37,184 nucleotides of DNA. It comes from a virus. The translations under genes were made by a program, and so were the position numbers. Of this stretch, positions 4,717 through 31,036 are shown piece by piece (position 1 is the first letter of the stretch; each line of letters starts with the position of its first letter). Where the stretch lies: positions 1 to 37,184 of IMG/VR virus record IMGVR_UViG_3300025151_005402; one strand, 5' to 3'. The notes beneath the pieces were generated by a model. That model had not been told where the DNA came from. It ran no database searches and saw only the letters and a list, made by a program, of their open reading frames with translations.

Positions 4717-4727
4717 AGGAGAAAAAA

Positions 4728-7917: not shown

Positions 7918-8121
7918 CCGCACTCCCGATGATTGCGAAAACACCGCTAATCCGGTGCAATCTTGTGGTGCAAAAAATCCCCAACCCGTTGTAAACCGGG
8001 CGGTTTAGCCCGACTACAGAAAGATCATCAATCTTGCCATATCGCCGTCTACGCAGTTGCATTAACCGACTGAAAACAAAAGTCGAATCAGTTTTTGACC
8101 GCCTAAAAGCTCGTATTAGAG

Positions 8122-8141
8122 CATTCCCAAACATTCCCAAA
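8122..8141. repeat. Tandem 10-bp direct repeat
   Basis: CATTCCCAAA is present twice in perfect tandem, followed by a partial third copy (CTATTCC). It lies in the middle of the putative attP, between the two clusters of arm-type sites, so it could be part of the integrase core region or a binding site for a directionality factor. The function is inferred only from position. Confidence 0.4.
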
Positions 8142-8146
8142 CTATT

Positions 8147-8162
8147 CCGCAGTTTTCTGCGG
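8147..8162. other. Perfect hairpin, possible end of late transcript
   Basis: CCGCAG and CTGCGG form a 6-bp perfect stem with a TTTT loop. Only a short T stretch (GGGTTTCC) follows, so it is a poor intrinsic terminator, but it lies about 230 bases after the last late gene where a transcript end is expected. It could instead be a structural part of the attachment site. Confidence 0.3.
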
Positions 8163-8228
8163 GTTTCCGTCATTGACCCATTTCGATGGTGCAAATTGGT
8201 GGTGCAAAAAATGGTGCAAAAATGACGT

Positions 8229-8454
8229 TACGGACAAGATTTACTCTTGTACCTAGTTGGCAACATACCTATATATAGTGCGTAAACGCAACAACGAGCG
8301 ACGAGACCCCAGATCGGTGCAAGGGCCGGGCCAAGAGCTGAAGCAGATGACGCTGACCAGCCAGTACAATGTCGGAGGCTGTTACCGCCTTCCTGACGAT
8401 GGCTCACGGAGAGCCGAAACATTGTCAGCCACTCAGCCACAAGGAGACGACCAA
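8229..8454 (+). promoter_or_regulatory. Leader and probable promoter of the small-gene/integrase operon
   Basis: About 225 bases with no convincing gene. An A/T-rich stretch (CATACCTATATATAGTG at 8264-8280) is promoter-like: TTGTAC at 8247-8252 and TATATA at 8270-8275 are 17 bases apart, though both match the consensus poorly. A GGTGCAA copy lies at 8316-8322 and a small hairpin (GGCTC/GAGCC) at 8401-8415. The leader ends with the AGCCACAAGGAG Shine-Dalgarno block. Some promoter is needed here because the flanking region carries the attachment site; the exact elements are uncertain. Confidence 0.3.
8435..8446 (+). promoter_or_regulatory. Conserved Shine-Dalgarno block AGCCACAAGGAG
   Basis: The 12-mer AGCCACAAGGAG sits 8 bases before the ATG at 8455 and fixes that start. 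The same block recurs at 8666-8677 and 8920-8931, with near copies at 9363-9373 and 9888-9898, always just upstream of a gene. Only AAGGAG is needed for ribosome binding, so conservation of AGCCAC suggests an extra role or recent duplication. Confidence 0.75.
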
Positions 8455-8631
8455 ATGCACACTTACAAAATCGCACTTTACTTCGAGAACCACACTTTCG
8501 CTGCCGAAGAAAGTTTCGACGCCCCACGAGGCACACCAACAGACGTGGTGCTTGACCGCGCCACTAGAGACTACGAAGGATTCACGATAAACGGTCGGCC
8601 AGTTTATGTCGGCTCCGCCTCTCCCTTTTAA
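8455..8631 (+). CDS. Small accessory protein, unknown function
   Basis: 58 residues (MHTYKIALYFENHTF...). The start is set by the AGCCACAAGGAG block 8 bases upstream; the in-frame extension further left lacks a Shine-Dalgarno. The protein looks like a small alpha/beta domain with no signal peptide or known motif; the C-terminal part reads GFTINGRPVYVGS. It is the first gene of a run of small accessory genes between attP and the integrase, each separated by a GC hairpin. I do not recognise the family. Such genes often encode host-takeover or lysogeny functions, but nothing here shows that. Confidence 0.6.
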   Translation: MHTYKIALYFENHTFAAEESFDAPRGTPTDVVLDRATRDYEGFTINGRPVYVGSASPF

Positions 8632-8636
8632 TCAAC

Positions 8637-8656
8637 GCCGGGGCTTCGGCCCCGGC
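8637..8656. repeat. GC hairpin with TTCG loop, copy 1
   Basis: GCCGGGGCTTCGGCCCCGGC forms a perfect 8-bp stem with a TTCG tetraloop. It lies six bases after the stop at 8631 and ten bases before the AGCCACAAGGAG block. No T-tract follows, so a simple intrinsic terminator is unlikely; RNA stabilisation, processing or insulation of the next ribosome site is more plausible. The identical hairpin recurs at 8892 and 9336. Confidence 0.85.
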
Positions 8657-8683
8657 ACCAACCTTAGCCACAAGGAGAGAGAC

Positions 8684-8884
8684 ATGAACATCACCGACCG
8701 CATAACTCAGATCAAAGCTAACATCGCTGACCTAGAGGCGCGGATCGCTCAAGGTGAGCGCCGCCCTAGCATGACCGACATGCATGTAGCCGCCGGACGC
8801 TTCATCCGCGACGACGAGATTGAGCGTTGCTTAAACTGGAACCGTCTTGCGCTGCGCCAATACAAAGCCAAACTTGGAAATTGA
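8684..8884 (+). CDS. Small coiled-coil protein, unknown function
   Basis: 66 residues. Start ATG is six bases after the AGCCACAAGGAG block. Residues 3-27 form a heptad-like helix (DRITQIKANIADLEARIAQ) and residues 45-64 another helix rich in Arg/Lys. This helical hairpin would suit a small dimeric protein. No enzymatic motif or membrane segment is visible. A GC hairpin lies on each side. The family is not recognised. Confidence 0.6.
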   Translation: MNITDRITQIKANIADLEARIAQGERRPSMTDMHVAAGRFIRDDEIERCLNWNRLALRQYKAKLGN

Positions 8885-8891
8885 ATTAACC

Positions 8892-8911
8892 GCCGGGGCT
8901 TCGGCCCCGGC
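8892..8911. repeat. GC hairpin with TTCG loop, copy 2
   Basis: The 20-base hairpin is identical to copy 1 and lies between the stop at 8884 and the AGCCACAAGGAG block at 8920-8931. Spacing to the ribosome site (8 bases) is nearly the same as in copy 1. No T-tract follows. Confidence 0.85.
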
Positions 8912-8938
8912 CTCACCTTAGCCACAAGGAGTTAATTG

Positions 8939-9328
8939 ATGAAACACCACATAAAAGACGATGGTGGTCGGTCGAAGTATTTCGATCACCCCTCACATTA
9001 CGGCGACTGTGTTGTCCGTGCCTGTGCCATCGCGACTGACAGGGATTACCTCGACGTGTTCAAAGACCTTTGTCAGATCGCAATCGAGATCGGCGACCTT
9101 CCCAACGCCCCTTCGGTTTATGATGAGTTTCTAACTCGTCACGGCTTCACGAAAAACAAGCCACCGAAGCGCAATGGCAAAAAGATACCGATCCGCGATT
9201 GGGTGCCAGATGCGCCGCGCGGCAACATCGTCGCAATCACGCGGCTGCACCTCGTAGCAATCGTCGACAACGTGCAACGTGACACTTGGTTAGACGAGCG
9301 TGTCGTCAACAGTTGGTATCACAAATAA
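8939..9328 (+). CDS. Papain-fold-like small phage protein (predicted Cys/His dyad)
   Basis: 129 residues from ATG at 8939, seven bases after the AGCCACAAGGAG block. HYGDCVVRACAIATDRDY places C24 at the start of a helix, and ITRLHLVAIVDNVQRDTW places H104 on a strand with D110 or D115 nearby. This order (Cys on helix, His on strand, Asp/Asn) is that of papain-like, C39 or NlpC-type cysteine peptidase folds, and similar small proteins occur in many phages. It has no signal peptide, so it would act in the cytoplasm. Peptidase or amidase activity is inferred from the dyad and unproven. It is flanked by hairpin copies 2 and 3. Confidence 0.6.
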   Translation: MKHHIKDDGGRSKYFDHPSHYGDCVVRACAIATDRDYLDVFKDLCQIAIEIGDLPNAPSVYDEFLTRHGFTKNKPPKRNGKKIPIRDWVPDAPRGNIVAITRLHLVAIVDNVQRDTWLDERVVNSWYHK

Positions 9329-9335
9329 TTACACC

Positions 9336-9355
9336 GCCGGGGCTTCGGCCCCGGC
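9336..9355. repeat. GC hairpin with TTCG loop, copy 3
   Basis: The hairpin is identical to copies 1 and 2 and lies seven bases after the stop at 9328 and seven bases before a slightly altered ribosome block (AGCCACAGGAG, 9363-9373). Confidence 0.85.
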
Positions 9356-9380
9356 ATCACCTAGCCACAGGAGATGACCA

Positions 9381-9557
9381 ATGAAAGTAAGAATAGAACA
9401 CACCTTCAACCTCGACGAACATGAGCTAGAACTGGCGCGGATAAGCTATGAGGCTTACGCCGACCCAGACGAAAGTTTTCGCGACTACATTAAGAGCAAC
9501 CTGATCAGTCAGGGGTCGTACTGGTTTCAATCTGTAGCAGATGAATTCGGAGTTTGA
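9381..9557 (+). CDS. Small acidic protein, unknown function
   Basis: 58 residues (MKVRIEHTFNLDEHELELAR...). It begins seven bases after AGCCACAGGAG, in the same setting as the preceding small genes, which is the main support. The protein is acidic, with a beta-type start and two helices (DEHELELARISYEAYA and DESFRDYIKSNLI), somewhat like a small ribbon-helix-helix or antitoxin-like fold, but no family can be named. The next gene starts four bases after its stop, without a hairpin between, so the two are probably co-translated. Confidence 0.55.
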   Translation: MKVRIEHTFNLDEHELELARISYEAYADPDESFRDYIKSNLISQGSYWFQSVADEFGV

Positions 9558-9560
9558 ATA

Positions 9561-9797
9561 ATGACTGACCAAAACATTAGTAAGGCCGTGGTGCGCGACG
9601 ACGACGGGCGCGTTCTCTTTTCAAACGTATCACTGACCGACATGGATTTGCACATGCTGCTCGAAGCCCTCGACGCAGTCTGCTGGGCTGACACCTTAGA
9701 CCACAAATGGGCCGCAGAGACTGACGCCGCCAGAGCGCAGCGCATTAAACGCAAATTGCAACGCGCCTTCGAACACACAGACACGGAGTTCGAATGA
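9561..9797 (+). CDS. Small acidic helical protein, unknown function
   Basis: 78 residues. The N-terminal part looks like two or three strands (ISKAVVRDDDGRVLFSNVSL), followed by helices rich in Leu, Ala and charged residues (HMLLEALDAVCWADTLD, then RAQRIKRKLQRAFEH). There is no membrane segment or catalytic motif. It follows the previous gene by three bases and ends in an ATGA overlap with a possible 16-residue peptide. The function is unknown; position upstream of the integrase does not make it an excisionase, as it lacks an obvious winged-helix pattern. Confidence 0.5.
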   Translation: MTDQNISKAVVRDDDGRVLFSNVSLTDMDLHMLLEALDAVCWADTLDHKWAAETDAARAQRIKRKLQRAFEHTDTEFE

Positions 9798-9935: not shown

Positions 9936-11249
9936 ATGGCCCAGAAAAAATCCAAAGTCCACAAGTTTCCCCTCGTCGGGAAAAAGTACCGGACGAGCTA
10001 TTACGACGAAAAAGGCAAACGCCAGTACATTAGCCACGCCGACGAACACGAGCTGATGCGCATGAAGATCGCTGCGCAGGAAGAGGTCGCGGAGGGTCGC
10101 CACACGAGCGCCAAAGAGGCCGGGACACTCGCCGAGGCGTTCAAGGCGTTCCACACGAACCGCAGCGAAAAAACGGACATCGATCCCAGCCACATTCGTC
10201 AGATCAAGAGTAAGTGGGATAACTGTCTGTCTAAGATCAGTGTCGACGGCACCCTGATCGCGACGATAAACATCAAACAGTTTTCGAAAAGAAAACTGCT
10301 TATCGCGTGTGGTGAGCAAATTGAGAGGTTCCAGATCGCGAAAGGCAACGAGTTGCGATATGCCGCTGCAAACTTCGACGTTTTGAAGGCAATCGTAAAT
10401 CACGCCGCAGCCAACGAGCTTTGCGCACCTGTAGATCGCGCAATCTGGAAGGCGGCTGAGATTGATTGGAAAGGGCGGCAAGACCTGCGTGTTAAAATCC
10501 CTCCAATCGATAACGTGCGCCGCCTGATAGAGGCTGCTGAGTTGTGGGATCGTGAGGGGCGGCAAGACAAATTGCGTTGCGAACATCCTCGGAGTATCAA
10601 CACCATCGATGTCGGCGATGGAGAGCGGTGGCGACGCCATTACGAGCGCATCGGTCACAAGCCCACGCCTTACGCACTGATCTTCCGTTGCCTTGGGCAA
10701 ATCGGTTGCCGCCCGTCAGAGTTGCGCGGTCTGCCGTTGTGCCGAGATGCCGCCGATCCAAACCAGCCGGGGCTGATAACTAACAGCAACAATCCCGGAG
10801 TAAGGTTACAGCAACGGGCGCATAGGGATGGCACTCTTGGTAAGATGAAAACCAAAAACGGTTATCGCTTCGTGCCGATTGGTCCCGATCTGGCGGCACG
10901 GCTACAGGCGCATATCGAGAAAGAAAACATCCAGCCGGGTGAACTGATTTTCTCGACGGCCACTGGCAAACCCCTCGACAGTGAACCGTGGCGCAAACGC
11001 CTCCACCAAATTTGCGAGTGGCACGACATCGGATGGTACGATGCCCTGTACACTCTCAGGCATGTCGCTGCGTCGATGTGGATTAAGCAGGGCCGTAACA
11101 TCAAATGGATTTCCGTCCGCATGGGGCATAAATCGGCTGCGTTCACCCTCGACACCTACGGCCACCTGTGGGACGAGGACGAGGAGGACGCGGCAGCAGC
11201 CGTTGATACCGAAAACATGCTGTACGGCCCTGCGGTGGCCGCTGAGTAG
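9936..11249 (+). CDS. int: Tyrosine recombinase / phage integrase
   Basis: 437 residues. The catalytic set of tyrosine recombinases is visible: R259 in QIGCRPSELRGL, a Lys on the beta hairpin (K305 or K307, MKTKNGYRFVPIG), R375 in LYTLRHVAAS, H398 in RMGHKSAAFTL and the nucleophile Y408 in DTYGHLW. The first residue of the usual HxxR box is Tyr372 rather than His, a known variation. The N-terminal 90 residues are basic and probably bind arm sites; a SAM-like core-binding domain follows. It would integrate the phage at the attP region near 7.9-8.2 kb. The start at 9936 has AAGGAG seven bases upstream. It is the last rightward gene before a strong hairpin and a convergent operon. Confidence 0.93.
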   Translation: MAQKKSKVHKFPLVGKKYRTSYYDEKGKRQYISHADEHELMRMKIAAQEEVAEGRHTSAKEAGTLAEAFKAFHTNRSEKTDIDPSHIRQIKSKWDNCLSKISVDGTLIATINIKQFSKRKLLIACGEQIERFQIAKGNELRYAAANFDVLKAIVNHAAANELCAPVDRAIWKAAEIDWKGRQDLRVKIPPIDNVRRLIEAAELWDREGRQDKLRCEHPRSINTIDVGDGERWRRHYERIGHKPTPYALIFRCLGQIGCRPSELRGLPLCRDAADPNQPGLITNSNNPGVRLQQRAHRDGTLGKMKTKNGYRFVPIGPDLAARLQAHIEKENIQPGELIFSTATGKPLDSEPWRKRLHQICEWHDIGWYDALYTLRHVAASMWIKQGRNIKWISVRMGHKSAAFTLDTYGHLWDEDEEDAAAAVDTENMLYGPAVAAE

Positions 11250-14281: not shown

Positions 14282-15076
14282 TTAACTCGCCACCCCGTAA
14301 ACCGTATCGTTTGATTGGTCTTCCTCTGCCCTCAACACTTCGACGGGTTTCAGTGGAAGTCCCTGCGCCCCAAAACCGGGCGCTAACATTCCATAGCAGG
14401 GATACACCGCTTTAATGTCATCAATCGGAAACTTGAGCGGCTGAAGGTCGTCCCTCAAGCGTTCCATATAAAATTGTATCCCAATGGAAGACAAACCATA
14501 AATCTCAAGCACTCCGTTCATCAGGCGTGTGTGCCCTAGAAAAGACGACATGCCGTCGGAAACAAGGCACAAGTGACTGACGCCGGTTACTGTAAAGTCA
14601 GGATATTTTTTCACATCTACAGATCGCTGCTCATCAAAAAATATCGCCCAGTTAAAAAAACCGGGACGGTTCGCCGCTCCGGCCTTGATGGCTCGTGTCG
14701 TTTCCGTGTGGACTGTTCCAGTCCCGACGGTCACGTAGCGGTCTTGCCCACTGAGGGGCGGGGTAACAACGTATTTTGGATTCCAGCTTAAATACCCAAA
14801 GATCGGGATAGCGGTCGTTTCAACCCGACCTTCTAATTCCTGCGCTAATGCCGGGTGCGCTTCCAGAATTTTGCTGATGGTGTCCATCGACGGGCCTTGG
14901 CCGCCTCGCGAATTGACGAACCGCGTAATTGTGGTTTGGGCAACCTCTGCGCGTTCTGCAATCTCGCGCCACGACAAACCGGCCGTAACCTTGTAACGAG
15001 TCAGTGCGTCCCTAAGTTCGCGAGGCGAAATCATTGCGCTGCCTTGTGTGTTTTGATGGGGTCTAGTCAGTAACAT
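14282..15076 (-). CDS. CI-like repressor with atypical C-terminal domain
   Basis: 264 residues. Residues about 15-85 form a helix-turn-helix domain (KVTAGLSWREIAERAEVAQTTITRFVNSR). The C-terminal domain begins like alphaproteobacterial S24 repressors (TAIPIFGYLSW) and ends in strands containing FPIDDIKAVYPCYG, but no GDSM-type serine or partner lysine is seen, so LexA-like self-cleavage is doubtful. It is the first gene of the leftward operon, divergent from the Cro-like gene, across an operator-like region. The start at 15076 is supported by the AGCCACAAGG block (15086-15095, minus strand) eight to nine bases upstream; ATG at 15034, with AAGG upstream, is a good alternative. Confidence 0.72.
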   Translation of the reverse strand: MLLTRPHQNTQGSAMISPRELRDALTRYKVTAGLSWREIAERAEVAQTTITRFVNSRGGQGPSMDTISKILEAHPALAQELEGRVETTAIPIFGYLSWNPKYVVTPPLSGQDRYVTVGTGTVHTETTRAIKAGAANRPGFFNWAIFFDEQRSVDVKKYPDFTVTGVSHLCLVSDGMSSFLGHTRLMNGVLEIYGLSSIGIQFYMERLRDDLQPLKFPIDDIKAVYPCYGMLAPGFGAQGLPLKPVEVLRAEEDQSNDTVYGVAS

Positions 15077-18742: not shown

Positions 18743-18990
18743 CTGTAACAGTCCCACCCTCTCCCCGCCGTTTCAAAATCTCAAAACCGGGTTACGCCGA
18801 TAACGGAAAAATTTTTTTCGGGGAACTGGTCGAGGTCGATGGACGCCGCTGTGTCGAGTTACAGCGCCCTGATCTCGCAGAGCAATGGATCGCCGCCGGG
18901 TGGGAGCCAACGGCGCGGCAGTCGGTTCCGACCATTACCGTCGACTTCGATTGGGTACGCCAAGTTTTTTCTGGAAAAATTGATGACTGA
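18739..18990 (+). CDS. Small conserved-looking protein before TerL
   Basis: 83 residues from a TTG with AAGGGG five to six bases upstream (a GTG at 18733 is also in frame but too close to the ribosome site). The protein is beta-rich: RRFKISKPGYADNGKIFFGELVEVDGRRCVELQ, then a helix (DLAEQWIAAGWEPT). The last eight bases overlap the TerL start (ATGACTGA), which fixes the TerL start codon. No family is recognised. It may help packaging, judging only by position. Confidence 0.5.
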   Translation: MTVTVPPSPRRFKISKPGYADNGKIFFGELVEVDGRRCVELQRPDLAEQWIAAGWEPTARQSVPTITVDFDWVRQVFSGKIDD

Positions 18991-20362
18991 GCTGAACGAC
19001 CTTGGAAAAGGTCTGGCGTTTCTGCGCGAGAACCCCATCGCTTTTATAGAGCTGATGGGTGCCACGCCAGAGCAATGGCAGCGCGAGGCGTTTGAGGCAC
19101 TGCAGTCCAATAACCGCATCAGCATCCGCTCCGGTCACGGCATTGGTAAAACGGCGTTCCTGAGCTGGGTCACGTTGTGGCAGCTCTTAACGCACTACCC
19201 GACCAAGGTCGCCTGTACTGCGAACACGTCAGCGCAGCTCTACGACGTGCTTTGGGCCGAGGTCAGCAAATGGCACCGGCGTCTGCCGCAGCAATTCCAA
19301 GACCTGCTGGAGATCAAGTCTGACCGCATCGAGCTGCGCGGTGCTGCGAATGAGAGCTTTGCGGTGGCGAAGGTCTCCCGGCGAGAAAACCCGGAGGCGC
19401 TGCAGGGGCTTCACTCGGAGAACCTGCTGTTCGTGATCGACGAGGCGTCAGGCATCGACAACGTGGTGTTCGAGGTCGCGGAGGGATCGATGTCCACGCC
19501 ACATGCGCGGACGATATTGTGCGGCAACCCCACCCGGTCGGAGGGGTATTTCTACGAGACGCACACGAAGATGCGTCACCGCTGGAAGACGATGCGGGTG
19601 CCGAGCTGGGAAAGTACGCAAGTCTCCGACGAGTTTGTCGAGGACATGAAGATCAAGTACGGCGAAGAGTCGAACGTGTTCCGCGTTCGTGTCGCTGCGG
19701 ACTTCCCGGAGGCTGACGACGATGCCGTCATGGCGCTTTGGAAGGTCGAGGCTGCGGTCGACCGGGACGTGGAGACGACCGGGTCTGTTATCTGGGGTTT
19801 GGATGTATCGCGCACCGGCAAGGATCGCTGCGCCCTCGCTAAACGCCAAGGCAATACGTTGCTGGAGCCGATCAAGTCATGGCAGCGCAATGACCTGATG
19901 GTGACGGTCGGCATGGTGGTCGACGAGTACGACGCGACGTATGGGCCGCTACGCCCGGAGGCGATCTGTGTCGACACCATTGGACTTGGTGCGGCGGTAG
20001 CGGACCGGCTGCGGGAGCTGGGCTACCCGGCCATCGATGTCAACGTGTCCGAGAACGCGGCGGTGAAGCAGCGGTTCATGCGGCTGCGCGACGAACTTTG
20101 GTGGAAGGCGAAAGACTGGTTCGACGAGATGGACTGCAAGATCGTCAGGGATGACGAGCTGATCTCGGAACTGACCATGCCGCGCTATGCGTTTACCAGC
20201 GGCGGCAAAATCAAGGTTGAAAGCAAAGACGAGCTGAGAAAACGCGCCCGGTCTCCCGACTTGGCAGACGCGTTTATTTTGACGTTCGTCGATGAGGGTC
20301 GCGGCGGCACGAGCTGGGCATCGCAGCGGCCAATCGAAATTGACACAAATTATGTGGTTTAG
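18983..20362 (+). CDS. terL: Large terminase subunit
   Basis: 459 residues. Walker A is SGHGIGKT (residues 50-57), Walker B with the catalytic acid is LLFVIDEAS (D153, E154), and the motor coupling motif follows at ILCGNPT (about 178-184). The C-terminal RNase H-like nuclease begins with WGLDVSRTGKDRCAL (D274), continues with ICVDTIGLG, and ends with SPDLADAF, giving the three metal-binding acids. It would cut and pump concatemeric DNA into the prohead through the portal. ATG at 18983 overlaps the previous gene by eight bases; upstream extension is unlikely. Portal starts one base after its stop. Confidence 0.95.
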   Translation: MTELNDLGKGLAFLRENPIAFIELMGATPEQWQREAFEALQSNNRISIRSGHGIGKTAFLSWVTLWQLLTHYPTKVACTANTSAQLYDVLWAEVSKWHRRLPQQFQDLLEIKSDRIELRGAANESFAVAKVSRRENPEALQGLHSENLLFVIDEASGIDNVVFEVAEGSMSTPHARTILCGNPTRSEGYFYETHTKMRHRWKTMRVPSWESTQVSDEFVEDMKIKYGEESNVFRVRVAADFPEADDDAVMALWKVEAAVDRDVETTGSVIWGLDVSRTGKDRCALAKRQGNTLLEPIKSWQRNDLMVTVGMVVDEYDATYGPLRPEAICVDTIGLGAAVADRLRELGYPAIDVNVSENAAVKQRFMRLRDELWWKAKDWFDEMDCKIVRDDELISELTMPRYAFTSGGKIKVESKDELRKRARSPDLADAFILTFVDEGRGGTSWASQRPIEIDTNYVV

Positions 20363-22387
20363 ATGGACAACATTCGAATAAGCAGCCTGATCGGCGCAGA
20401 GATCAATGATGCCATCGGCAATCTTGGTTCCGAGGTATCGCAGGAGCGCAAGGACGCGCTCGAATATTACCTGTCGGAGCCTTTTGGCAATGAACAGGAT
20501 GGGCGCTCAAGTGTTATTTCTTCTGATGTACACGACGTCGTTGAATGGATTTTACCTTCCCTCATGCGGACGTTCTGCAGCTCCGACCAGATTGTCCGTT
20601 TTGACGCGCGTCAGGAGAGCGATATCGAGGCTGCGCGACAGGCGACGGACTATGTAAATTTTATCATCACTCAAGACAATGAGTGGACGCAGATCGCCTA
20701 TAACTGGATGAAGGACGCGCTTATCCAGAAGGTCGGCGTAATTAAGCATCTCTATGAGACGGTCGAAGAATACGACATGGAGATGTATGAGGATTTGACC
20801 GACGCAGAGTATGCGTTGATCGCCTCTGATCCCGATTTCGAAATTCTCGAACACACTGAGAAGTCGGTCGAGCTGCAGGTCGATGTCGAGGAAGACGACG
20901 ACGCGCTGATCGAGGGCATGATGACCGGCACGTCGCATGATGTGCGTGGCCGCAGGTCTTCGGAGACTGGCTGTGTCACCATCGTTAACGTGCCGCCGGA
21001 AGAGTTTCTGATCAGCAAGGACGCGCGGACAGTCGACGATGCGACATTCGTCGCGCACCGGGTCGAGAAAAGCGTTTACGAGCTGGTGCAGATGGGCTTT
21101 GACCGCGAACAGGTCGAAGACCTGCCTAGCTATTCCAGCCTGACGACATCCGAGGAACGCCGCGCTCGATACAATCGCGATGACGACGTGGACAACGACG
21201 TGCAGTCCGATCCGATGCTGCGCAAGGTTCTGATCCACGAATGCTACATGCGGTTCGATCCCGAAGACGATGGCCGGGTGGCGCTGCACAAAGTCACGGT
21301 CGGTGGCAGCGGTCACGAAATCCTAGACATCGAAGAAGTTATGGAGGTGCCGTTCTCCACCATTTGTCCGATCCAGATACCGCACAAGTTTTACGGCCTG
21401 TCGGTCGCGGACACGGTGATGGACCTGCAGCTTATCAAGTCTACCATTATGCGCCAGACGCTCGATGGCCTGTACATGACGACAAACCCCCGGCTAGAGG
21501 TAGTCGAGGGGCAGACGAACATCGGCGACCTGCTGAACAACCGCCCCGGCTCAATCGTGCGGGTGCGTCAGCCCGGTGCGATCCGGGAGCTGAACCAGCA
21601 GGGTGTCAACGCTGCCAAGACAATCGGGATGCTCGATTATCTCGATGGCGTGAGAGAGAGCCGCACGGGTGTCAGCAAAAACTCGATGGGGCTAAACGCC
21701 GAGTCGCTGCAGAACACAACCGCGACGGCGGTGTCTGCCATGCAGAACGTGGCGCAGCAAAAGATCGAGCTGATCGCGCGGATGTTTGCCGAGACCGGCA
21801 TCAAACATTTGGCGAAATGTGTGTTGATGCTTGTCAGCCGTTACCAGTCGGACAAACGCATCATGCGCATCCGGGATAAATACATCGAGTTTGATCCCCG
21901 GATGTGGTCGAACAAGTTTGATGCCTCGATAGACATCGGCTACGGCGGCGGCATGAAAGAGGGGCAAATGCGCACCCTTGCCGTGATTGCCGAGAAGCAG
22001 GAACAGCTCCTGCAGATGCTGGGGCCAAACAATCCGCTCGTCGATATGAAGCAGTATCGCGACACGTTGGCAAAGATTGTCGAGAGCGCCGGGTTCAATC
22101 GACCGGAGGCGTTCTTTAAACCGATCACTGCCGAGCAAATCATGCAGATGCAAGAGGCGGCCGAACAACCACAACAGCCGCAGATGACGCCGGAAATGAT
22201 TGAAACACAGGCCAAGATCGAGGCCGACCGCATGAAGATGGAAGCAGAGATACAGCTGAAGCGCGAGAAACAGGAAGCCGAGCTGCAGCTAAAAATTCAG
22301 GAGCTGAACGCCGAGATCGAAATGAAACGGATCGAACTGGCAACCGAGACAGGCGATCAGCAGATCAACATTCGATCAGTCGGCTAA
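20363..22387 (+). CDS. Portal protein, P22-like
   Basis: 674 residues, near the 725 of P22 portal. The N-terminal helix region with SSDVHDVVEWILPSLMRTFCSS, the acidic middle (about 172-180), the stretch VMDLQLIKSTIMRQTLDGLYMTTNPRLEV and RESRTGVSKNSMGLNAESL match the P22-type portal family. The last 75 residues are a long Gln/Glu/Lys coiled coil, corresponding to the barrel or crown. Twelve copies form the DNA entry channel at one capsid vertex and contact TerL. It starts immediately after TerL; its stop shares a base with the next start. Confidence 0.9.
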   Translation: MDNIRISSLIGAEINDAIGNLGSEVSQERKDALEYYLSEPFGNEQDGRSSVISSDVHDVVEWILPSLMRTFCSSDQIVRFDARQESDIEAARQATDYVNFIITQDNEWTQIAYNWMKDALIQKVGVIKHLYETVEEYDMEMYEDLTDAEYALIASDPDFEILEHTEKSVELQVDVEEDDDALIEGMMTGTSHDVRGRRSSETGCVTIVNVPPEEFLISKDARTVDDATFVAHRVEKSVYELVQMGFDREQVEDLPSYSSLTTSEERRARYNRDDDVDNDVQSDPMLRKVLIHECYMRFDPEDDGRVALHKVTVGGSGHEILDIEEVMEVPFSTICPIQIPHKFYGLSVADTVMDLQLIKSTIMRQTLDGLYMTTNPRLEVVEGQTNIGDLLNNRPGSIVRVRQPGAIRELNQQGVNAAKTIGMLDYLDGVRESRTGVSKNSMGLNAESLQNTTATAVSAMQNVAQQKIELIARMFAETGIKHLAKCVLMLVSRYQSDKRIMRIRDKYIEFDPRMWSNKFDASIDIGYGGGMKEGQMRTLAVIAEKQEQLLQMLGPNNPLVDMKQYRDTLAKIVESAGFNRPEAFFKPITAEQIMQMQEAAEQPQQPQMTPEMIETQAKIEADRMKMEAEIQLKREKQEAELQLKIQELNAEIEMKRIELATETGDQQINIRSVG

Positions 22388-22512: not shown

Positions 22513-22608
22513 ATGCCGATGGTGAAGGGCAAAAAGTATCCGTACACGAGGGCCGGAATGAAGGCCGCTGCCAAGGCGCGTAAAAAGGGCAAGAAAAAGA
22601 AAAAATAA
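22513..22608 (+). CDS. Tiny basic peptide between portal and large virion protein (2)
   Basis: 31 residues: MPMVKGKKYPYTRAGMKAAA followed by a Lys/Arg-only tail. A strong AAGGAGATCGAGCC site precedes it. The KKYPYTxAGMxAA pattern followed by a Lys tail is widely seen in phages near portal or capsid genes. Its stop shares a base with the next start (TAATG). The function is unknown; DNA condensation or virion packaging is possible. Confidence 0.65.
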   Translation: MPMVKGKKYPYTRAGMKAAAKARKKGKKKKK

Positions 22609-25600
22609 TGCCGCACGGTCAGCCCCATGCCGCGGCGGGATTGTTAAGCGAAAATCAACCTGCCCTAAACTTTATTGATGTGCGGAGTAATCCTTACGAG
22701 CCGATCTATCCGCTTGTCGGCGATCCTAACCTTGGGACAGGCAGTTACTCTCTGCCGTACTTCCAAGGCAACGTGCCGACTGGTTCTGTCGGCGTAGACC
22801 GTAATTTCATGCGCACTACGGTGCGACCGGCGCTGGGCGTGTTGGGCGATAGCCCCGGTTTTTCGGGGCATGGCGTGGCTGACGTTGTACCGTTCACTGC
22901 CCCATTCATGGCAGCGGGTGACTATGTCGCGCGGAACATGAACCGCGAATATGTCGGACGCCCCGGCGCTCAGATTTTAGACTTGGCAATTGTAGGGGTG
23001 CCGGGTGTTCTCGATGCCGCCCTGATACCCGCCGCCCGGCGCGGCGCTTCGACGTTATTTGACCGTGCGGTCGGCGATAGATTGCCGATGACATCTGGCG
23101 AGTTGGCGGCATTGAAGTCACGCATGGACGCAGCGCGTGATGTCACGCCGCAGCCACCGGCCCAGATCGCTGCACCCGAAGCGGCAGCGCCACGTCAGGT
23201 GGAACCGCCGCCGCTATTAGCGGCAGATGAAGCGCCTTTTCCGAACAGTGGGACGTTTCAAACAACCGATAACGGAAACCTTATCGGTTACAAGGTGATG
23301 GCTGTTGAAGATGGCAAACTTGTATCAGGCGCGAATAGCCGCTTGTCTTTTGAAAATGCCGTTGGTGCAAACATATCCATGCCGGGACAAGGCGTTTTTT
23401 TCAGCAATAACCCGGAGTATGTAAAATCATACTATGCTGGTTTAGCTGATAATGAGGTTTTGCTGAAATTAGAGGTTGATCCAAAAAACATTAAGTCTGG
23501 CAACATTAACGATGTCGAGCCAGAAATTGGGGCATCAGCAGCAAAAATAGTTGGGATTGAACCAATTGAACCGCAGCCGCTGGTGATGTATGATCAAGCC
23601 CCCGTTGGCGGCAATCCGGTCGGGAACATTGCGGACCCAATCGCCCAAAAGCCAGTTTCTGGTGCTACGGTACCGGACCCCTCAACGGGGCCATATGCAA
23701 ATGAGATACCGGTAACTTATCAGGGTAAGCCTCTTGAGGTTCTTACCCCCAACGAGTTCGCAGAACTTGGGCGCTCTTATGGCGTCGACAACCTTGGGCC
23801 ACTCAGCGCCCCAGTGCGCTACGAGTATTCTGACGGTGCCAGTTTCGAAATCCCCGGTGGGGTCGATGGCGAGTTTACCTATTACGACCTGCTAAAAATT
23901 CGGTCGGACGCGATTGATCCCAGTCGCATCCCGGCTGAACTGCACACACAAATACAGCGCAAACTTATCAACACGATGACGCCTAAAGTCATCACCGATG
24001 AGCATGTTTTTAATGCCATGCTTTTCGGTATCACGTCGCCAAACCAGCCGCTGTTCGCAAACCAGTTAGCGGCAAGTCGTTTGCGAGTGCGTAACCGTGA
24101 CGACATCGAGCGCCTCGCCAGTTTCTTCAAATATCCTGTTAACGCAAAACTCGCGAAGGAGGAGAAACTTGAAATTGATCGCGAGATGGCGCGGACGTTT
24201 GGTGTACAGGCGGCGAAAGACGGCGGCTTAGGTATTAAAGGATCGGCTGACTATTCGAACATTGCGAGACTGGCAAAGCTGTTTCTAGAGCGCCCAGAGT
24301 TCTTCCGCATTGGTCCCGCTGAGAGTTGGCCGCTGTTTGTCGACCGTCTCAGCTCACAGGTGCAGGGTCTAGGCACCAAGACCGCTGCGTTCAGCGCAGT
24401 GTGGCAGAAACCAAACGTCGCCGGTATTTCTGCAATTGATCGCCACATGGCGTCGATATTCTTTGACAAGTTTTATCGCACCAAAAAGGCGAAAGCAGAG
24501 GCCGAGCGGGTGCTGTCAGATCGCTGGGGCGCAGCCATCGATCAACGCAGACAGATCGATAAGCAGTACAAAGGTCGGACGGACAGCGACGAGTACAAAC
24601 GCGCGACACAATATTTGCCGAGCGGTAGTGCAAAGAAAGTGCGGGGCAAGGCCGCGATACTGCGGGAGCCGGGTGGCGAGGGATTTTTTACTGACCACAT
24701 GTTGGCGCAGTTGAAACCGCGCAGCTCTAAACTGATGACGCCGAACCCGAATGTCGGTCGATCAGCAATGGCCTCGCTGATTAGCGGCACGGAGTTTAAT
24801 CCATCGCCTGTGATGATTAACCCGAACATCTCAAAAGAGTATGCGGGTATTAACTGGGTTGCGCAGCCCGACAATATTTTTATGGCATCGCCTCTCTACA
24901 AACGAGCCATCGAGCTGAACGTCGAAGAGGCAGAAAAAACAGGGTTGTCGGTTTTTGCCGAACAGTGGCGCAAATGGGACAGGCAGCGGCGTTCTCTGGA
25001 GCCGCACGAAAATATGTTCCCCGGCCTCGAAAAGATGCCGAAAATTAGTCACGAGCAAATGCGAAATGTTCTGGCTAAGTTTAAGCAGCAAGGCGTCACG
25101 GATCAGCAAAAAGTGGAATTTGCGGACCCGGAGACGGGCGTACTTACACAACGTCTGAAGCCTAACCGGCCTCTTGAAGGTGATCCGGCGGGTCTGGCGT
25201 ATTTCGATCAGGGACCGGGCATCTTGCGGAGCGCAGACCCGTGGGTGGACGATGCGGGTACTCCAGTGTACCCTATGTATTACAATTTTAGAGAATTGCC
25301 GGATAGCTATGCCAAAGACAAAGTCGCACAATGGTTGGGCGCAAGAGAAGGCGCTGCCGGACTCGGATGGCTCGACGACGCAGAACAAGAAGCCGCTCGA
25401 CGAGCCGACGAAAATGACCTCCTACGCAGAGACAGTGTTGCTAGGGGCGGGACGCCATCCCTCCAGTCCCGAGTGGATGAAAGACTCAAATCTGTTCGCG
25501 GATCATTAGGTGCGTGGTCCCTCGCGTTTGACGATGCAGGGCAACTCAAAAAAGAATTAAGCCGCCAAGACCTGCTAGAGATGGCAGGGGTTCTTGTCGA

Positions 25601-26429
25601 CGTTCTGCACGTCGGCGGTCGCGGAGGGATGGATACTGCCACGCGCGGTTTCCTATATTCGAACCCTAGTTTTTCTGACCCGATTAAGGTGCCTGATGAT
25701 GTTGTGCGGAAGATACCTAATTTGCTGCACTACGGCCCTGATAGTGATGATGTCGCAAAAATCGCTCCGGGTTATCGACAGATTGGAATAAACGTCGACA
25801 ATGTTCTTGCGGCGCAGGACAAGGCAAGAACTGATCCACGCTATCAAAGTTTGCTGCCCATCGAGCTTGGATTGCCTGACGGTAAACCCGAAGACCTGTT
25901 TATGTACGTTTTGACCCATGAAATGGGTCATGCCATGCACGAATCAGTGCCGCGTTTGGCGCAACAATTGCAGAATTTTCCGAATGCAGAGATTGATCCA
26001 GCGATCTCGTTGTCTCGTGTTTTGACTAATCTCGTGTCTCGTAACAGCGCGGAAGAGGGCGCAGTTTTGTCTCGATACGATGCGGTCAATTTAGGGGCAA
26101 CCATGCAGGAAGAGGCCATAAAAATTAGCAAAAAAAGACGCCCTACTGCATGGGCAAACTCTGAAATAAAAGACCCAAATTTCGGCATTCGTACAAGTGA
26201 AGCAGAGCGGATGCACCATTACCTGCACACGCCGCAGGAGCTGTTGGCAGACGTTGCTGCGACAATGTTGGAAAACCCTGCGTCAATTCGTAAGACGGAA
26301 ATTTATACGTTTTTGAAAAATCTATTCGGTAAAGGCGTCTACAAAGACGTTATCAAATTCGGTGCATTTGGTGGTCTGACGCTGCCGCAGATTTTGCAGA
26401 TGTCTGAACAGAACGAGACGCAGGGGTAA
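22608..26429 (+). CDS. 1273-residue multidomain protein: ART-like, HhH-GPD-like and zinc-peptidase motifs
   Basis: The order seen is: an N-terminal region with hydrophobic stretches (about 80-145); a possible ADP-ribosyltransferase-like domain (about 215-320, GYKVMAVEDGK, GQGVFFSNNPEYVKSYYAG, EIGASAAKIVGIE); a helical domain (about 445-640) with GLGTKTA (587-593) and AIDRHM (609-614), so K591 and D611 match the Lys and Asp of helix-hairpin-helix DNA glycosylase/AP lyases; and a C-terminal zincin with H1104-E-M-G-H1108 plus the likely third ligand E near 1209 (PQELLADVAAT). Location between portal and scaffold suggests a virion component, possibly injected. The ART call is weak, the HhH-GPD moderate, the zincin good. 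No signal peptide. Confidence 0.72.
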   Translation: MPHGQPHAAAGLLSENQPALNFIDVRSNPYEPIYPLVGDPNLGTGSYSLPYFQGNVPTGSVGVDRNFMRTTVRPALGVLGDSPGFSGHGVADVVPFTAPFMAAGDYVARNMNREYVGRPGAQILDLAIVGVPGVLDAALIPAARRGASTLFDRAVGDRLPMTSGELAALKSRMDAARDVTPQPPAQIAAPEAAAPRQVEPPPLLAADEAPFPNSGTFQTTDNGNLIGYKVMAVEDGKLVSGANSRLSFENAVGANISMPGQGVFFSNNPEYVKSYYAGLADNEVLLKLEVDPKNIKSGNINDVEPEIGASAAKIVGIEPIEPQPLVMYDQAPVGGNPVGNIADPIAQKPVSGATVPDPSTGPYANEIPVTYQGKPLEVLTPNEFAELGRSYGVDNLGPLSAPVRYEYSDGASFEIPGGVDGEFTYYDLLKIRSDAIDPSRIPAELHTQIQRKLINTMTPKVITDEHVFNAMLFGITSPNQPLFANQLAASRLRVRNRDDIERLASFFKYPVNAKLAKEEKLEIDREMARTFGVQAAKDGGLGIKGSADYSNIARLAKLFLERPEFFRIGPAESWPLFVDRLSSQVQGLGTKTAAFSAVWQKPNVAGISAIDRHMASIFFDKFYRTKKAKAEAERVLSDRWGAAIDQRRQIDKQYKGRTDSDEYKRATQYLPSGSAKKVRGKAAILREPGGEGFFTDHMLAQLKPRSSKLMTPNPNVGRSAMASLISGTEFNPSPVMINPNISKEYAGINWVAQPDNIFMASPLYKRAIELNVEEAEKTGLSVFAEQWRKWDRQRRSLEPHENMFPGLEKMPKISHEQMRNVLAKFKQQGVTDQQKVEFADPETGVLTQRLKPNRPLEGDPAGLAYFDQGPGILRSADPWVDDAGTPVYPMYYNFRELPDSYAKDKVAQWLGAREGAAGLGWLDDAEQEAARRADENDLLRRDSVARGGTPSLQSRVDERLKSVRGSLGAWSLAFDDAGQLKKELSRQDLLEMAGVLVDVLHVGGRGGMDTATRGFLYSNPSFSDPIKVPDDVVRKIPNLLHYGPDSDDVAKIAPGYRQIGINVDNVLAAQDKARTDPRYQSLLPIELGLPDGKPEDLFMYVLTHEMGHAMHESVPRLAQQLQNFPNAEIDPAISLSRVLTNLVSRNSAEEGAVLSRYDAVNLGATMQEEAIKISKKRRPTAWANSEIKDPNFGIRTSEAERMHHYLHTPQELLADVAATMLENPASIRKTEIYTFLKNLFGKGVYKDVIKFGAFGGLTLPQILQMSEQNETQG

Positions 26430-28035: not shown

Positions 28036-29079
28036 ATGGCTGAAGAGACCACAGAAATTGTCGACGATCTGCCAACTCGCACTCTTGATGAGCGCAGCGC
28101 AAATCAGTCGCCAAATCGTCACCCTACACTGGGTGACGCCCAAGCGTACTTCACTGAAATGCTGGACCCGGCACCCCCGGACAATTCAGAAACGAGCGAA
28201 GACGCGCCCACCGAACCGGTAGATGAGCCGGAGGCTATTGAGACGGCCACCGAGGAAACTGTCGAGTTCGAAGGATCAGACGCGGAAGAAGACGCGCCGG
28301 AGATCGAAGAGGAACCCGTCCCTGTCGAAGACGAACCGAGACACTCGGTCACCGTCAACGGCGAGGAATACGAGGTCACCCTCGACGAGCTGCGGAACGG
28401 CTACATGATGCAGTCTGATTATTCTCGCAAGACCTCCGATCTGGCCGAGCAACGCCGTGCCTTCGAAGCACAGCAGCAACAGCTAGAGATGGAGCGTCAG
28501 AGATATCTGCAAGAACTATCGCAGATGCAGCAAACTGTCGACGAGCCTGAACCCGATTGGGAAGCTCTGAAAACAGAAGACGAGCTGGAGTATGTGATCA
28601 AGCGCAACGAGTGGCGCGAGAAGCAGGAAGCGAAAACCGCAGCGCAGCAGAAGTATCAGGCCGAGATGCAACAGCAGCAGCAAATGCAAATGCAGGAGCT
28701 GCAGCAGTTTGTCGAGGCCGAAAGACAGAAGCTGCCGGAACGCATCCCTGAGTGGAAAGACGAGGCCGTCGCGAAGGCCGACCACGAAAAGATCATCACA
28801 TACGCACAGCGTTCCGGGTTCGCCCCGGAGGAGCTGCAGGGACTTTACGATAGCCGAGCCGTCAAGGTTCTGCGCGATGCGATGCTTTGGAACGAATTGC
28901 AGGAGCAAAAACCTGCAGTTCAGAAAAAAGCGCGTAACGCGCCGAAAGTTGCAAAGCCCGGAACGACAAAGTCGAAAGCCGATAGCAATCAGGCACGAAG
29001 GCGGGAACAGCGCAGTCGTCTCAAGAAGAGCGGTCGTGTCGAAGACGCGGCTGCAATTTTTTCTGAAATGTTAAAATAG
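28036..29079 (+). CDS. Head scaffolding protein
   Basis: 347 residues. Residues 1-105 are very acidic (Glu/Asp/Pro-rich). The pattern VTVNGEEYEVTLDELRNGYMMQ followed by DYSRKTSDLAEQRRAFEA is typical of phage scaffolds. A long Gln/Glu coiled coil spans about 135-240. The C-terminal 60 residues are basic, like the capsid-binding end of scaffolds. It would shape the prohead and leave before DNA packaging. A GAGGAG site precedes the start; capsid begins nine bases after the stop. Confidence 0.82.
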   Translation: MAEETTEIVDDLPTRTLDERSANQSPNRHPTLGDAQAYFTEMLDPAPPDNSETSEDAPTEPVDEPEAIETATEETVEFEGSDAEEDAPEIEEEPVPVEDEPRHSVTVNGEEYEVTLDELRNGYMMQSDYSRKTSDLAEQRRAFEAQQQQLEMERQRYLQELSQMQQTVDEPEPDWEALKTEDELEYVIKRNEWREKQEAKTAAQQKYQAEMQQQQQMQMQELQQFVEAERQKLPERIPEWKDEAVAKADHEKIITYAQRSGFAPEELQGLYDSRAVKVLRDAMLWNELQEQKPAVQKKARNAPKVAKPGTTKSKADSNQARRREQRSRLKKSGRVEDAAAIFSEMLK

Positions 29080-29088
29080 GAGTGCGAA

Positions 29089-30054
29089 ATGGCACAACCG
29101 ACTAACACTTTCGACCAGTATGACTCGGTCGGAAACAGAGAGGACTTGCTGGATACTATTTATTCCATCAGTCCCACAGAAACGCCGGTGATGAGTAACA
29201 TCGGCACGTCCAAAGCGACGAACACCTATCACGAGTGGCAGACTGACAGCCTTGCTTCGGCAACCGCTGCTAACGCCGCGATTGAAGGTGACGACGCGTC
29301 AGGTTCGTCGATCTCGGCAACCACTCGTGTCGGAAACTACACGCAGATTTCCGACAAGGTCGTGGTAATTTCTGGAACGCTTGAGTCCGTCAACAAGGCC
29401 GGGAGAAATTCCGAAATGGCCTACCAGATGGCAAAGGCTTCCAAGGAACTGAAGCGCGACATGGAAAGCGCCATCAGCCAGAACAATGCGTCTGTGGCTG
29501 GTAATGCGTCGACCGCCAGAAAGTCTGCTGGTTTCGAAAGCTGGATCACCACAAACGACGTGCGTGGTACGGCTGGTTCACCTGCGGACGGTGGTTTTTC
29601 CTCCGGCATCGTTGCCGCTCCGACCGATGGAACGCAACGCGCGTACACGGAAACCATTCTCAAGTCTGCCGTTAAAAAGGCATGGGAAGCGGGTGGCGAT
29701 CCGAGCATGTGCGTGGTTGGTCCGTTCAATAAGCAGACCATGTCCGGTTTCTCCGGCATTGCTGCAAACCGGTTTCAAGTAAATAGCCCTGAGCCGGGAG
29801 CAATCATCGGTGCGGCTGACGTGTATGTGTCAGATTTCGGTGAGCTTCAGATCGTACCTTCGCGCTTCTCGCGCGACCGGTCGGCTCTGGTCATTGATCC
29901 TGAAATGATGGCGACCAGCTACCTTCGTCCGTTCGAAACGAACGATTTGGCGAAGACTGGCGACAGCGAGAAAAAGCAAATTCTCGTCGAGTACACGCTG
30001 GAAATGCGGAACGAAGCTGCCCACGCGGTAGTTGCGGACCTCACCACTTCGTAA
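29089..30054 (+). CDS. Major capsid protein, SU10/DUF5309 type
   Basis: 321 residues. FDQYDSVGNREDLLDTIYSISPTETPVMSNIG is the N-terminus of the SU10 MCP family (HK97 fold). Further family segments are HEWQTDSLASA, TRVGNYTQISDKVVVISGT, MAYQMAKASKELKRDMESAI and FGELQIVPSRF. It would form the icosahedral shell. AGGAGTGCGAA precedes ATG. It is followed by a strong terminator, consistent with high expression of scaffold plus capsid. Confidence 0.92.
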   Translation: MAQPTNTFDQYDSVGNREDLLDTIYSISPTETPVMSNIGTSKATNTYHEWQTDSLASATAANAAIEGDDASGSSISATTRVGNYTQISDKVVVISGTLESVNKAGRNSEMAYQMAKASKELKRDMESAISQNNASVAGNASTARKSAGFESWITTNDVRGTAGSPADGGFSSGIVAAPTDGTQRAYTETILKSAVKKAWEAGGDPSMCVVGPFNKQTMSGFSGIAANRFQVNSPEPGAIIGAADVYVSDFGELQIVPSRFSRDRSALVIDPEMMATSYLRPFETNDLAKTGDSEKKQILVEYTLEMRNEAAHAVVADLTTS

Positions 30055-30101: not shown

Positions 30102-30413
30102 ATGACTGATCGCTGGACACGGCCACTCAGCTACGACCCGATGACCGGGCTGAAAGAAACTTTTCATTTCGATCACGAAAGCGACAAGTGGTGGATTGAA
30201 ACTACTCAACAGGCCACGCCGATCATCGATCAGAATAAACGCGATCAATCCATGAATGGGAAAATGGGCAGCGGTGACATGCGCCACGTCGCGCGTATCC
30301 CGATGGTTGTCTATCACCGCCTGTTGCAGGAAGGGATTACCAAAGACCCGAAAGCCCTAAAAAAATTCCTGAATGAAAACGGTTACCTGAAAACCGTCGA
30401 AGGCAATCTGTGA
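30102..30413 (+). CDS. Small protein of the head-tail region
   Basis: 103 residues. SYDPMTGLKETFHFDHESDKWWIETTQQATPI, then HVARIPMVVYHRLLQEGITKDPKALKKFLNENGY, resembles small proteins regularly found after the capsid gene in SU10-type podoviruses, with a RIPxxVxxxLxxEGI stretch. It probably takes part in capsid or connector assembly, though no experimental function is known to me. Its stop overlaps the adaptor start (TGATG). CTGGAGACAG precedes ATG. Confidence 0.6.
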   Translation: MTDRWTRPLSYDPMTGLKETFHFDHESDKWWIETTQQATPIIDQNKRDQSMNGKMGSGDMRHVARIPMVVYHRLLQEGITKDPKALKKFLNENGYLKTVEGNL

Positions 30414-31036
30414 TGGTTGCCACCTACACCGAGCTGAAAAGTCTGGTCGCTGACTATCTGAACCGCGACGACCTGTCGGCTCAGATCGATAGTTTCATCG
30501 ATCTTGCCGAGGCAAAATTTAATCGCGATCTGCGGCTGCGAAAAATGCTGAAGACGGTACAGGCGACGACGACCGCGAACGACGACACGGTGTCTTTGCC
30601 AAACGATTATCTCGAAATGAAAGAGCTGCACCTCGTGCAGTCGCCGAAAAAGATGCTGCGGTTTTTTCCGCCGTCTTCGTTTCTGCAGACATATGCAGCC
30701 CAGCAGGTCGGCACTCCCGCCGCCTTTACGATTGTTGGCTCAGACATCCGGCTGGGACCGTCGCCCTCCGGCGAGTTCACGCTGGAGATGCTCTACTTTG
30801 CAAAAATCCCTGCGCTATCCAGCAGCAATCTTGTGAACGCCGTTCTGCAGGATGCTCCCGACGCCTATCTCTACGGCGCGTTGCTGGAGGCAGAACCCTT
30901 TTTAATGAACGACGCGCGGCTGCAGACGTGGGCCTCTCTGCACAAGGCATCAATGGAAAGCCTGATCGCGAGTGACGAGAGCGGCCTAAACACATCATCG
31001 ACGCTGTCGCAGCGTCTCGATTACACGATGGCATAG
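30413..31036 (+). CDS. Head-tail adaptor protein, SU10-adaptor-like
   Basis: 207 residues. TYTELKSLVADYLNRDDLSAQIDSFIDLAEAKFNRDLRLR and SLPNDYLEMKELHL are the family hallmark of the podovirus adaptor (P22 gp4/SU10 adaptor-like). The following beta region and C-terminal helices (DAYLYGALLEAEPFLMND) also fit. Twelve copies would bind the portal and close the head. ATG at 30413 shares a base with the preceding stop; a GTG one codon earlier is possible. Confidence 0.82.
   Translation: MVATYTELKSLVADYLNRDDLSAQIDSFIDLAEAKFNRDLRLRKMLKTVQATTTANDDTVSLPNDYLEMKELHLVQSPKKMLRFFPPSSFLQTYAAQQVGTPAAFTIVGSDIRLGPSPSGEFTLEMLYFAKIPALSSSNLVNAVLQDAPDAYLYGALLEAEPFLMNDARLQTWASLHKASMESLIASDESGLNTSSTLSQRLDYTMA

Follow-up and report, generated by a model that had tools for sequence, protein, structure and literature searches.

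What would a phage gain from a protein of 1273 amino acids (aa), encoded among its head genes, in which the motifs of a DNA base-excision enzyme stand ahead of those of a zinc peptidase? The question is raised by the 37,184-base virus record IMGVR_UViG_3300025151_005402, which was analyzed over its whole length and is referred to below as the window. An earlier note on its sequence had proposed that this protein joins an HhH-GPD glycosylase-like motif to a zinc-peptidase motif. We find that the central module of the protein very probably has the HhH-GPD fold, judging from its structural model, and is predicted to form a new subfamily of the HhH-GPD DNA glycosylases/apurinic-apyrimidinic (AP) lyases. 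Among the several roles that we considered, that of an active, probably delivered HhH-GPD enzyme appears the likeliest, and on balance we favor it. The protein and the segments discussed below are located in the window as follows.

22608..26429, plus strand: 1273-aa multidomain protein, an open reading frame (ORF) with a near full-length relative (L001) of 92% identity
23250..23567, plus strand: residues 215-320, unproven ADP-ribosyltransferase (ART)-like stretch, proposed from resemblance by eye
23697..25205, plus strand: residues 364-866, HhH-GPD glycosylase-like module, from a conserved unit, an AlphaFold2 model, and structural matches to Ogg enzymes
24036..24062, plus strand: residues 477-485, SPNQPLFAN loop, with N479 as the candidate duplex-filling Asn
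24366..24392, plus strand: residues 587-595, helix-hairpin-helix GLGTKTAAF, with the second hairpin helix starting at K591 in the model
24378..24380, plus strand: codon of the predicted catalytic Lys591, invariant in relatives
24438..24446, plus strand: D611-R612-H613, predicted catalytic Asp and phosphate-contacting His, invariant, with DRH also present in OGG2
24963..24977, plus strand: Q786-W-x-x-W790, predicted base-contact helix, invariant and placed by structural offset onto OGG1 Gln315/Phe319
25917..25931, plus strand: residues 1104-1108, HEMGH, candidate zincin motif (Peptidase_M3, E value 0.012, under its cutoff)
26238..26252, plus strand: residues 1211-1215, ELLAD, with E1211 as candidate third zinc ligand, kept in three sequences

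The glycosylase motif lies exactly where the note had placed it: GLGTKTA occupies residues 587-593 and contains K591, and IDRH follows with D611 20 residues beyond this Lys. In 20,000 composition shuffles of the 1273-aa protein, the pattern G[hydrophobic]GxKx[AGS]...[ILV]DxH at matching spacing arose at a frequency of 5e-5. IMG/VR holds one close relative of the full protein (L001, at 92% identity) and one partial relative (L005). Relatives of the motif region were sought with a DNA pattern, G[hyd]GxK..[AS]..17..DRH ([hyd], hydrophobic), which was first checked on the window and retrieved about 20 divergent relatives. Their alignment revealed residues ~364-866 as one conserved unit, with residues 1-363 and 867-1273 being lineage specific, and an alignment-based search found 113 relatives in viral contigs, with module-bearing ORFs that span 483 to 2,873 aa and in some cases end at contig ends. 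The module is common in environmental phages. Among 84,980 prokaryote genomes we found a single relative, located on a short contig within a Verrucomicrobiota genome assembled from a metagenome, and a search for PF22175 in 195 genomes of the phylum of that contig did not find this family; we thus identified no cellular donor. A tblastn search of 50,697 phage records gave no match with the whole protein or with two divergent module sequences, and two window segments gave chance-level partial matches only. Because no Pfam, PHROGs, or NCBIfam family matches the module above threshold and no isolated-phage record of it was found, annotation pipelines would miss it.

Residue conservation was assessed in 86 distinct domains, retrieved with patterns that contain K or DRH. 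K591 and D611 (each 86/86), R612, H613, M614, W599, and V598 are invariant in this set; in that scan, 60 of the 86 domains fit the DRHM pattern alone, which places no demand on K591, yet they keep it. As a control for bias, a second scan used the C-terminal pattern E[PT]HExM[FHN]P, which contains neither K591 nor D611, and yielded 24 further distinct relatives; the Lys is present in 22/22, the Asp in 23/23, and H613 in 23/23, with gaps in truncated contigs only. The earlier note had held that loss of K591 or D611 in close homologues would speak against a glycosylase, and neither residue is ever lost among the 86 and 24 relatives. Conservation extends to the SPN loop (S477, P481, and N485 invariant; N479 in 80/85) and to Q786-W-x-x-W790 (83/83 and 23/23 in the two retrieval sets), with Q786, W787, W790, D791, and H613 all invariant. 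The second glycine of the hairpin is variable among relatives (G, S, K, R, or A), and a Fusobacterium Ogg2 homologue, with GMSYK at its hairpin, likewise lacks it. Purifying selection on the module core is strong: between the window and L001, core residues 445-640 show a synonymous difference (pS) of 42% and a ratio of nonsynonymous to synonymous substitution (dN/dS) of 0.029, with dN/dS values of 0.057 for the whole module and 0.17 for the whole protein.

AlphaFold2, run without templates on a 14-sequence alignment of the module, produced a model with a predicted local distance difference test score (pLDDT) of 81 and a predicted template modeling score of 0.82. For structural comparison, VIA-align 2 was run on Foldseek candidates; the best 30 rows were all glycosylases of the HhH-GPD superfamily, and the first unrelated row had a Z score of 3.7. 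The best matches were the OGG2 enzymes (Pfam PF22175, Ogg-HhH), namely SsOgg (3FHG; Z 12.7, 195 residues aligned, root-mean-square deviation 3.1), MjOgg (3KNT; Z 12.5), and TmOgg (3N0U; Z 12.4), with human and mouse OGG1 at ~10 over 196-216 residues, MagIII at 7.7, EndoIII and MUTYH at 7.5, and TAG at 5.0. In the model, Lys591 starts the second hairpin helix and Asp611 lies directly before the next helix, as in HhH-GPD enzymes, and BFVD contains an independently predicted protein of 614 aa from an uncultured phage that shares the module fold (E 1e-21, 26% identity). Fold prediction of the glycosylase region, which the earlier note had suggested as a check, returned an HhH-GPD fold, and the HhH-GPD reading is strongly supported by the predicted fold, the invariant catalytic residues, and selection. 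A chance origin of the glycosylase motif was rejected in view of the fold matches, the rarity of the motif in shuffles, and its invariance in relatives.

Several comparisons weigh against this identification. Foldseek's own statistic was weak (E 0.95), an hmmsearch of the PDB with module profiles found no glycosylase, Pfam Ogg-HhH reached at best E 0.0079 in one relative and was otherwise above 0.08, and the NCBIfam N-glycosylase/DNA lyase model gave E 0.18, below significance. Against plasmid-borne Ogg2, hhalign correctly paired the SPN loop, hairpin Lys, and DRH, setting SPNQPLFAN against the Ogg2 loop TPQSKA, but at E 0.01-0.1 and low probability; the match was no better than those of the best shuffled profiles, and a deeper profile made it weaker, not stronger. 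Because the shuffle control shows it to be marginal, the hhalign match is not counted as evidence. Given the weak Foldseek statistics, the fold claim rests on VIA-align, the clean gap to unrelated folds, and the motifs, and because the sequence profiles stay below significance, kinship to Ogg and OGG1 is what we infer from fold plus motifs. A profile match is not strictly defining for HhH-GPD membership, since sequence similarity among the OGG subfamilies is slight outside the core (PMC3397491).

We then considered how the putative active site compares with those of OGG1 and OGG2, in which the base is contacted by Gln315 and Phe319 of OGG1 and by Asp194 and Trp198 of OGG2, the phosphate is contacted by His270/His148, and an Asn is inserted into the duplex (PMC3397491). 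In the phage module, Q786 and W790 are four residues apart, H613 stands two residues after D611, and N479 lies in the conserved SPN loop; in the model, His613, Asn479, Gln786, and Trp790 appear to fill the OGG1/OGG2 contact positions. The structural alignments to OGG1 end at a constant offset of 117 (442/325, 441/324, 440/323), and Q786/W790 (model residues 432/436) would fall on Gln315/Phe319 provided that no gap interrupts the alignment of the last ten residues. Like OGG2, the module has the hairpin Lys, the D-R-H tripeptide, a Trp in the last helix, and a conserved polar residue in the N-terminal loop. Unlike OGG2 (~207 aa), it is ~500 aa long with insertions, is embedded in a larger protein, has Gln rather than Asp four residues ahead of the Trp, and separates K from D by 20 rather than 18 residues. 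With human and mouse OGG1 it shares the K...D.H signature and the Gln315/Phe319-like spacing of Q786/W790, whereas it differs from them in its Trp in place of Phe, in its extra insertions, and in having no demonstrated A-domain.

These differences bear on substrate choice. OGG2 senses 8-oxoguanine (8-oxoG) via the carboxylate of a strictly conserved C-terminal Lys, and OGG2 without its C terminus loses 8-oxoG excision while retaining AP-lyase activity (PMC3397491). The window protein runs on for ~400 residues past the module, to ...NETQG; a module in this internal position cannot have the OGG2 Lys sensor, and a plain OGG2 enzyme was rejected on this ground. No equivalent of OGG1 Gly42 was identified in the module, where the structural alignments to OGG1 start at model residues 13-23. 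On these two grounds, 8-oxoG specificity is unsupported. Since truncated OGG2 keeps its AP-lyase activity, a module that acts purely as an AP lyase deserves serious consideration.

Where such an enzyme might act is suggested by its gene neighborhood. The window carries an SU10-type head module of terminase, portal, scaffold, major capsid, and adaptor genes.

18839..20362, plus strand: terminase large subunit (phrog_2, E 6.8e-46)
20363..22387, plus strand: SU10-type portal (PF23899, E 3.5e-201)
28036..29079, plus strand: head scaffolding protein (phrog_3927, E 9.5e-63)
29089..30054, plus strand: SU10-type major capsid protein (PF17236, E 3.8e-104)
30410-31036: adaptor, part of the SU10-type head module

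As the earlier note had stated, the 1273-aa gene lies between portal and scaffold genes, with the portal 5' and the scaffold 3' according to the PF23899 and phrog_3927 matches; a 423-aa ORF and small ORFs separate it from the scaffold gene. The order portal-module-scaffold-capsid-adaptor recurs in divergent contigs (L008, L020, L023, L032, L035, and L040), the module stands beside SU10-type terminase/portal genes in L080, L094, and L096-L099, and other portal (phrog_12082) and terminase large subunit (phrog_38) families are near it in L048, L059, and L070. Giant relatives contain ART-PolyVal (L109, E 6e-20; L017, 6e-13; L025, 8e-10), and PBECR5 (L009, 2e-22), PcfJ (L109), LPD23 (L047), and HExxH motifs also occur in sister proteins. 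Polyvalent proteins of phages have been proposed to be packaged in the virion and injected as effectors that act early in infection (PMC5512222). Like them, the window protein is large and multidomain, is encoded in a virion gene block, and has relatives in which the module is combined with domains of this class; unlike the repertoire of the polyvalent survey, whose text mentions no glycosylase (PMC5512222), it carries the putative base-excision module, and our literature search found no paper joining a glycosylase with polyvalent proteins in this way. Gene context and sister architectures support the assignment to the phage polyvalent proteins that the note had suggested, and we judge packaging in the virion and delivery from it to be reasonably likely. 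In one giant module protein (L082, 5764-12789), the C-terminal part matches Methyltransf_23 (E 3e-6), a possible modifying partner domain.

The portal-scaffold slot is variable in its content. In the related phages phiM5 and Venkman it contains nothing but small ORFs, whereas MW202462.1 (L121, Manatee Spring), whose portal is 43% identical, has in this slot a 541-codon proline-rich protein at 8026-9648, which was considered as a module relative and rejected as unrelated. Because these phages leave the slot vacant or carry something else there, it appears to behave as an accessory, interchangeable cargo position, and an essential head protein was rejected for the same reason. This variability also bears on whether the HhH-GPD fold is kept as a non-catalytic head component that binds or organizes DNA, for instance close to the portal. 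Such a part would fit the adjacency of portal and scaffold genes in several lineages, the unconserved second hairpin glycine, and a module far larger than known glycosylases; however, the invariant Lys591, Asp611, His613, Gln786, and Trp790 would be needless in a purely structural role, and a part absent from phiM5, Venkman, and MW202462 is not essential to the head. We consider a non-catalytic role quite unlikely, and the module is probably catalytically active.

Which DNA would an active, delivered module attack? The earlier note had raised two roles, an assault on host DNA and the protection or processing of incoming phage DNA, and two further genes of the window help to weigh them.

9936..11249, plus strand: tyrosine-type phage integrase (PF00589, E 1e-8)
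14282-15076, minus strand: repressor-like helix-turn-helix (HTH) gene

The presence of the integrase and the repressor-like HTH protein suggests that the phage is temperate. An injected effector might excise bases from the host chromosome, or from the modified DNA of a rival phage, for takeover or exclusion: polyvalent proteins are thought to carry early-infection effectors (PMC5512222), the ART and PBECR domains of sister proteins modify or cut host molecules, and a host-side DNA glycosylase is used against T-even phages (PMC13160076). Yet destruction of host DNA conflicts with the lysogeny that the integrase and repressor-like protein imply, the nicks that only a few injected copies could make in a large chromosome would presumably be a weak weapon, and our literature searches found no phage precedent for such an attack on host or rival DNA. 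An attack of this kind is, in our estimate, unlikely. In view of the integrase and the repressor-like protein, we infer that a protective or processing role on incoming DNA is a better fit than an attack on host DNA, and we tentatively propose that the module treats incoming phage DNA.

In the incoming-DNA role, the protein would travel in the head and enter the cell along with the genome. The helix-hairpin-helix (GLGTK) would grip the DNA backbone, the SPN loop (N479) would fill the space that a purine-like base vacates on flipping out, and the helix residues Q786 and W790 would hold that base. Asp611 would activate Lys591, which would displace the base and form a Schiff base with C1'; beta-elimination would then nick the strand. 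Damaged or modified bases would in this way be excised from the incoming phage DNA early in infection, before phage gene expression.

Whether such a base would be a lesion or a deliberate modification is a related question. On rhizobial plasmids (L116, L117, L118, and L119), we observed a TIR-domain gene, a gene for an Ogg2-type N-glycosylase/DNA lyase, and a gene for 7-cyano-7-deazaguanine synthase (QueC) in conserved order with overlaps of a few bases, an arrangement that looks like a defense operon. In the type IV cyclic oligonucleotide-based antiphage signaling system (CBASS), QueC-family enzymes attach deazaguanine to proteins (PMC11996544, PMC13279940). Given the TIR-Ogg-QueC operons and QueC in type IV CBASS, loci of host-phage conflict do contain Ogg-like enzymes. 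By the same observations and by its lack of the OGG2 8-oxoG sensor, the phage module might be a counter-defense enzyme that acts not on damage but on modified nucleobases (deazaguanine-type conjugates, or bases placed or recognized by host defense); as the argument is one of context and we found no direct link between the module and any defense system, we regard this as very unlikely. The fullest form of our proposal is that the protein is the first recognized virion-delivered base-excision enzyme, with a hybrid pocket that pairs an OGG1-like Gln with an OGG2-like Trp and has none of the known 8-oxoG sensors; the enzyme would excise a specific modified or damaged base at phage entry, as repair or counter-defense, and be freed by a built-in zinc protease. 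Taken as a whole, this proposal is doubtful. If a delivered base-excision role is correct, some phages bring such an enzyme into the cell along with their genome, a DNA-repair or -processing activity joins the known repertoire of injected phage effectors, and the selective force would be damage in packaged DNA or base modification in host-phage conflict. The candidate catalytic residues pinpointed here make the activity directly testable.

The peptidase half of the protein is less clear. HEMGH is present at residues 1104-1108 as the note had claimed, and so is a downstream Glu, although it is E1211 in ELLAD (1211-1215) rather than residue 1209. Among the shuffled proteins, HExxH followed by ExxAD arose at a frequency of 1.1e-3, and HExxH by itself, at 1.3e-2, is only mildly unusual. 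The C-terminal region has only two relatives in IMG/VR, and the three sequences that share it all retain both HEMGH and ELLAD; HExxH is thus not lost where the region exists, but most module relatives are without the region altogether. Zincins are the commonest domain of the polyvalent survey, where they are proposed to process the polypeptide (PMC5512222). The window region resembles these metallopeptidases in having HExxH and then a downstream Glu in the described order and differs from them in lacking a profile match over cutoff (the Peptidase_M3 match falls short) and a usable structure model. The model of residues 866-1273 had a pLDDT of 37, and for this reason a zinc peptidase is proposed from the motifs; the region is a candidate zincin, whose role we take, with low confidence, to be processing of the polyprotein or else cleavage of a host protein.

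The ADP-ribosyltransferase that the note had suspected at residues 215-320 went unconfirmed, with no Pfam match up to E 10 and no H-G start motif. The stretch resembles part of the L109 ART region by eye only, and a blast extension of the L017 match into it proved spurious on inspection. Along the gene, pS between the window and L001 differs sharply (0.65 for residues 1-199, 0.08 for 200-345, 0.42 for 445-640, and 0.09 for 1040-1273), which suggests that segments inside the 1273-aa gene are exchanged as a mosaic.

A tRNA search of the window found none. Ahead of the integrase and HTH genes, window positions 3922-5753 match a TauD-family dioxygenase (E 4e-50) and, weakly, TctC; the record looks like an SU10-like phage that is integrated or temperate, and its left end is possibly host flank. 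In two of the contigs, the SU10-type major capsid gene is present as two separate open frames in the same order (L040, 6973-8164; L042, 4829-6020), possibly reflecting an intervening sequence or a frameshift.

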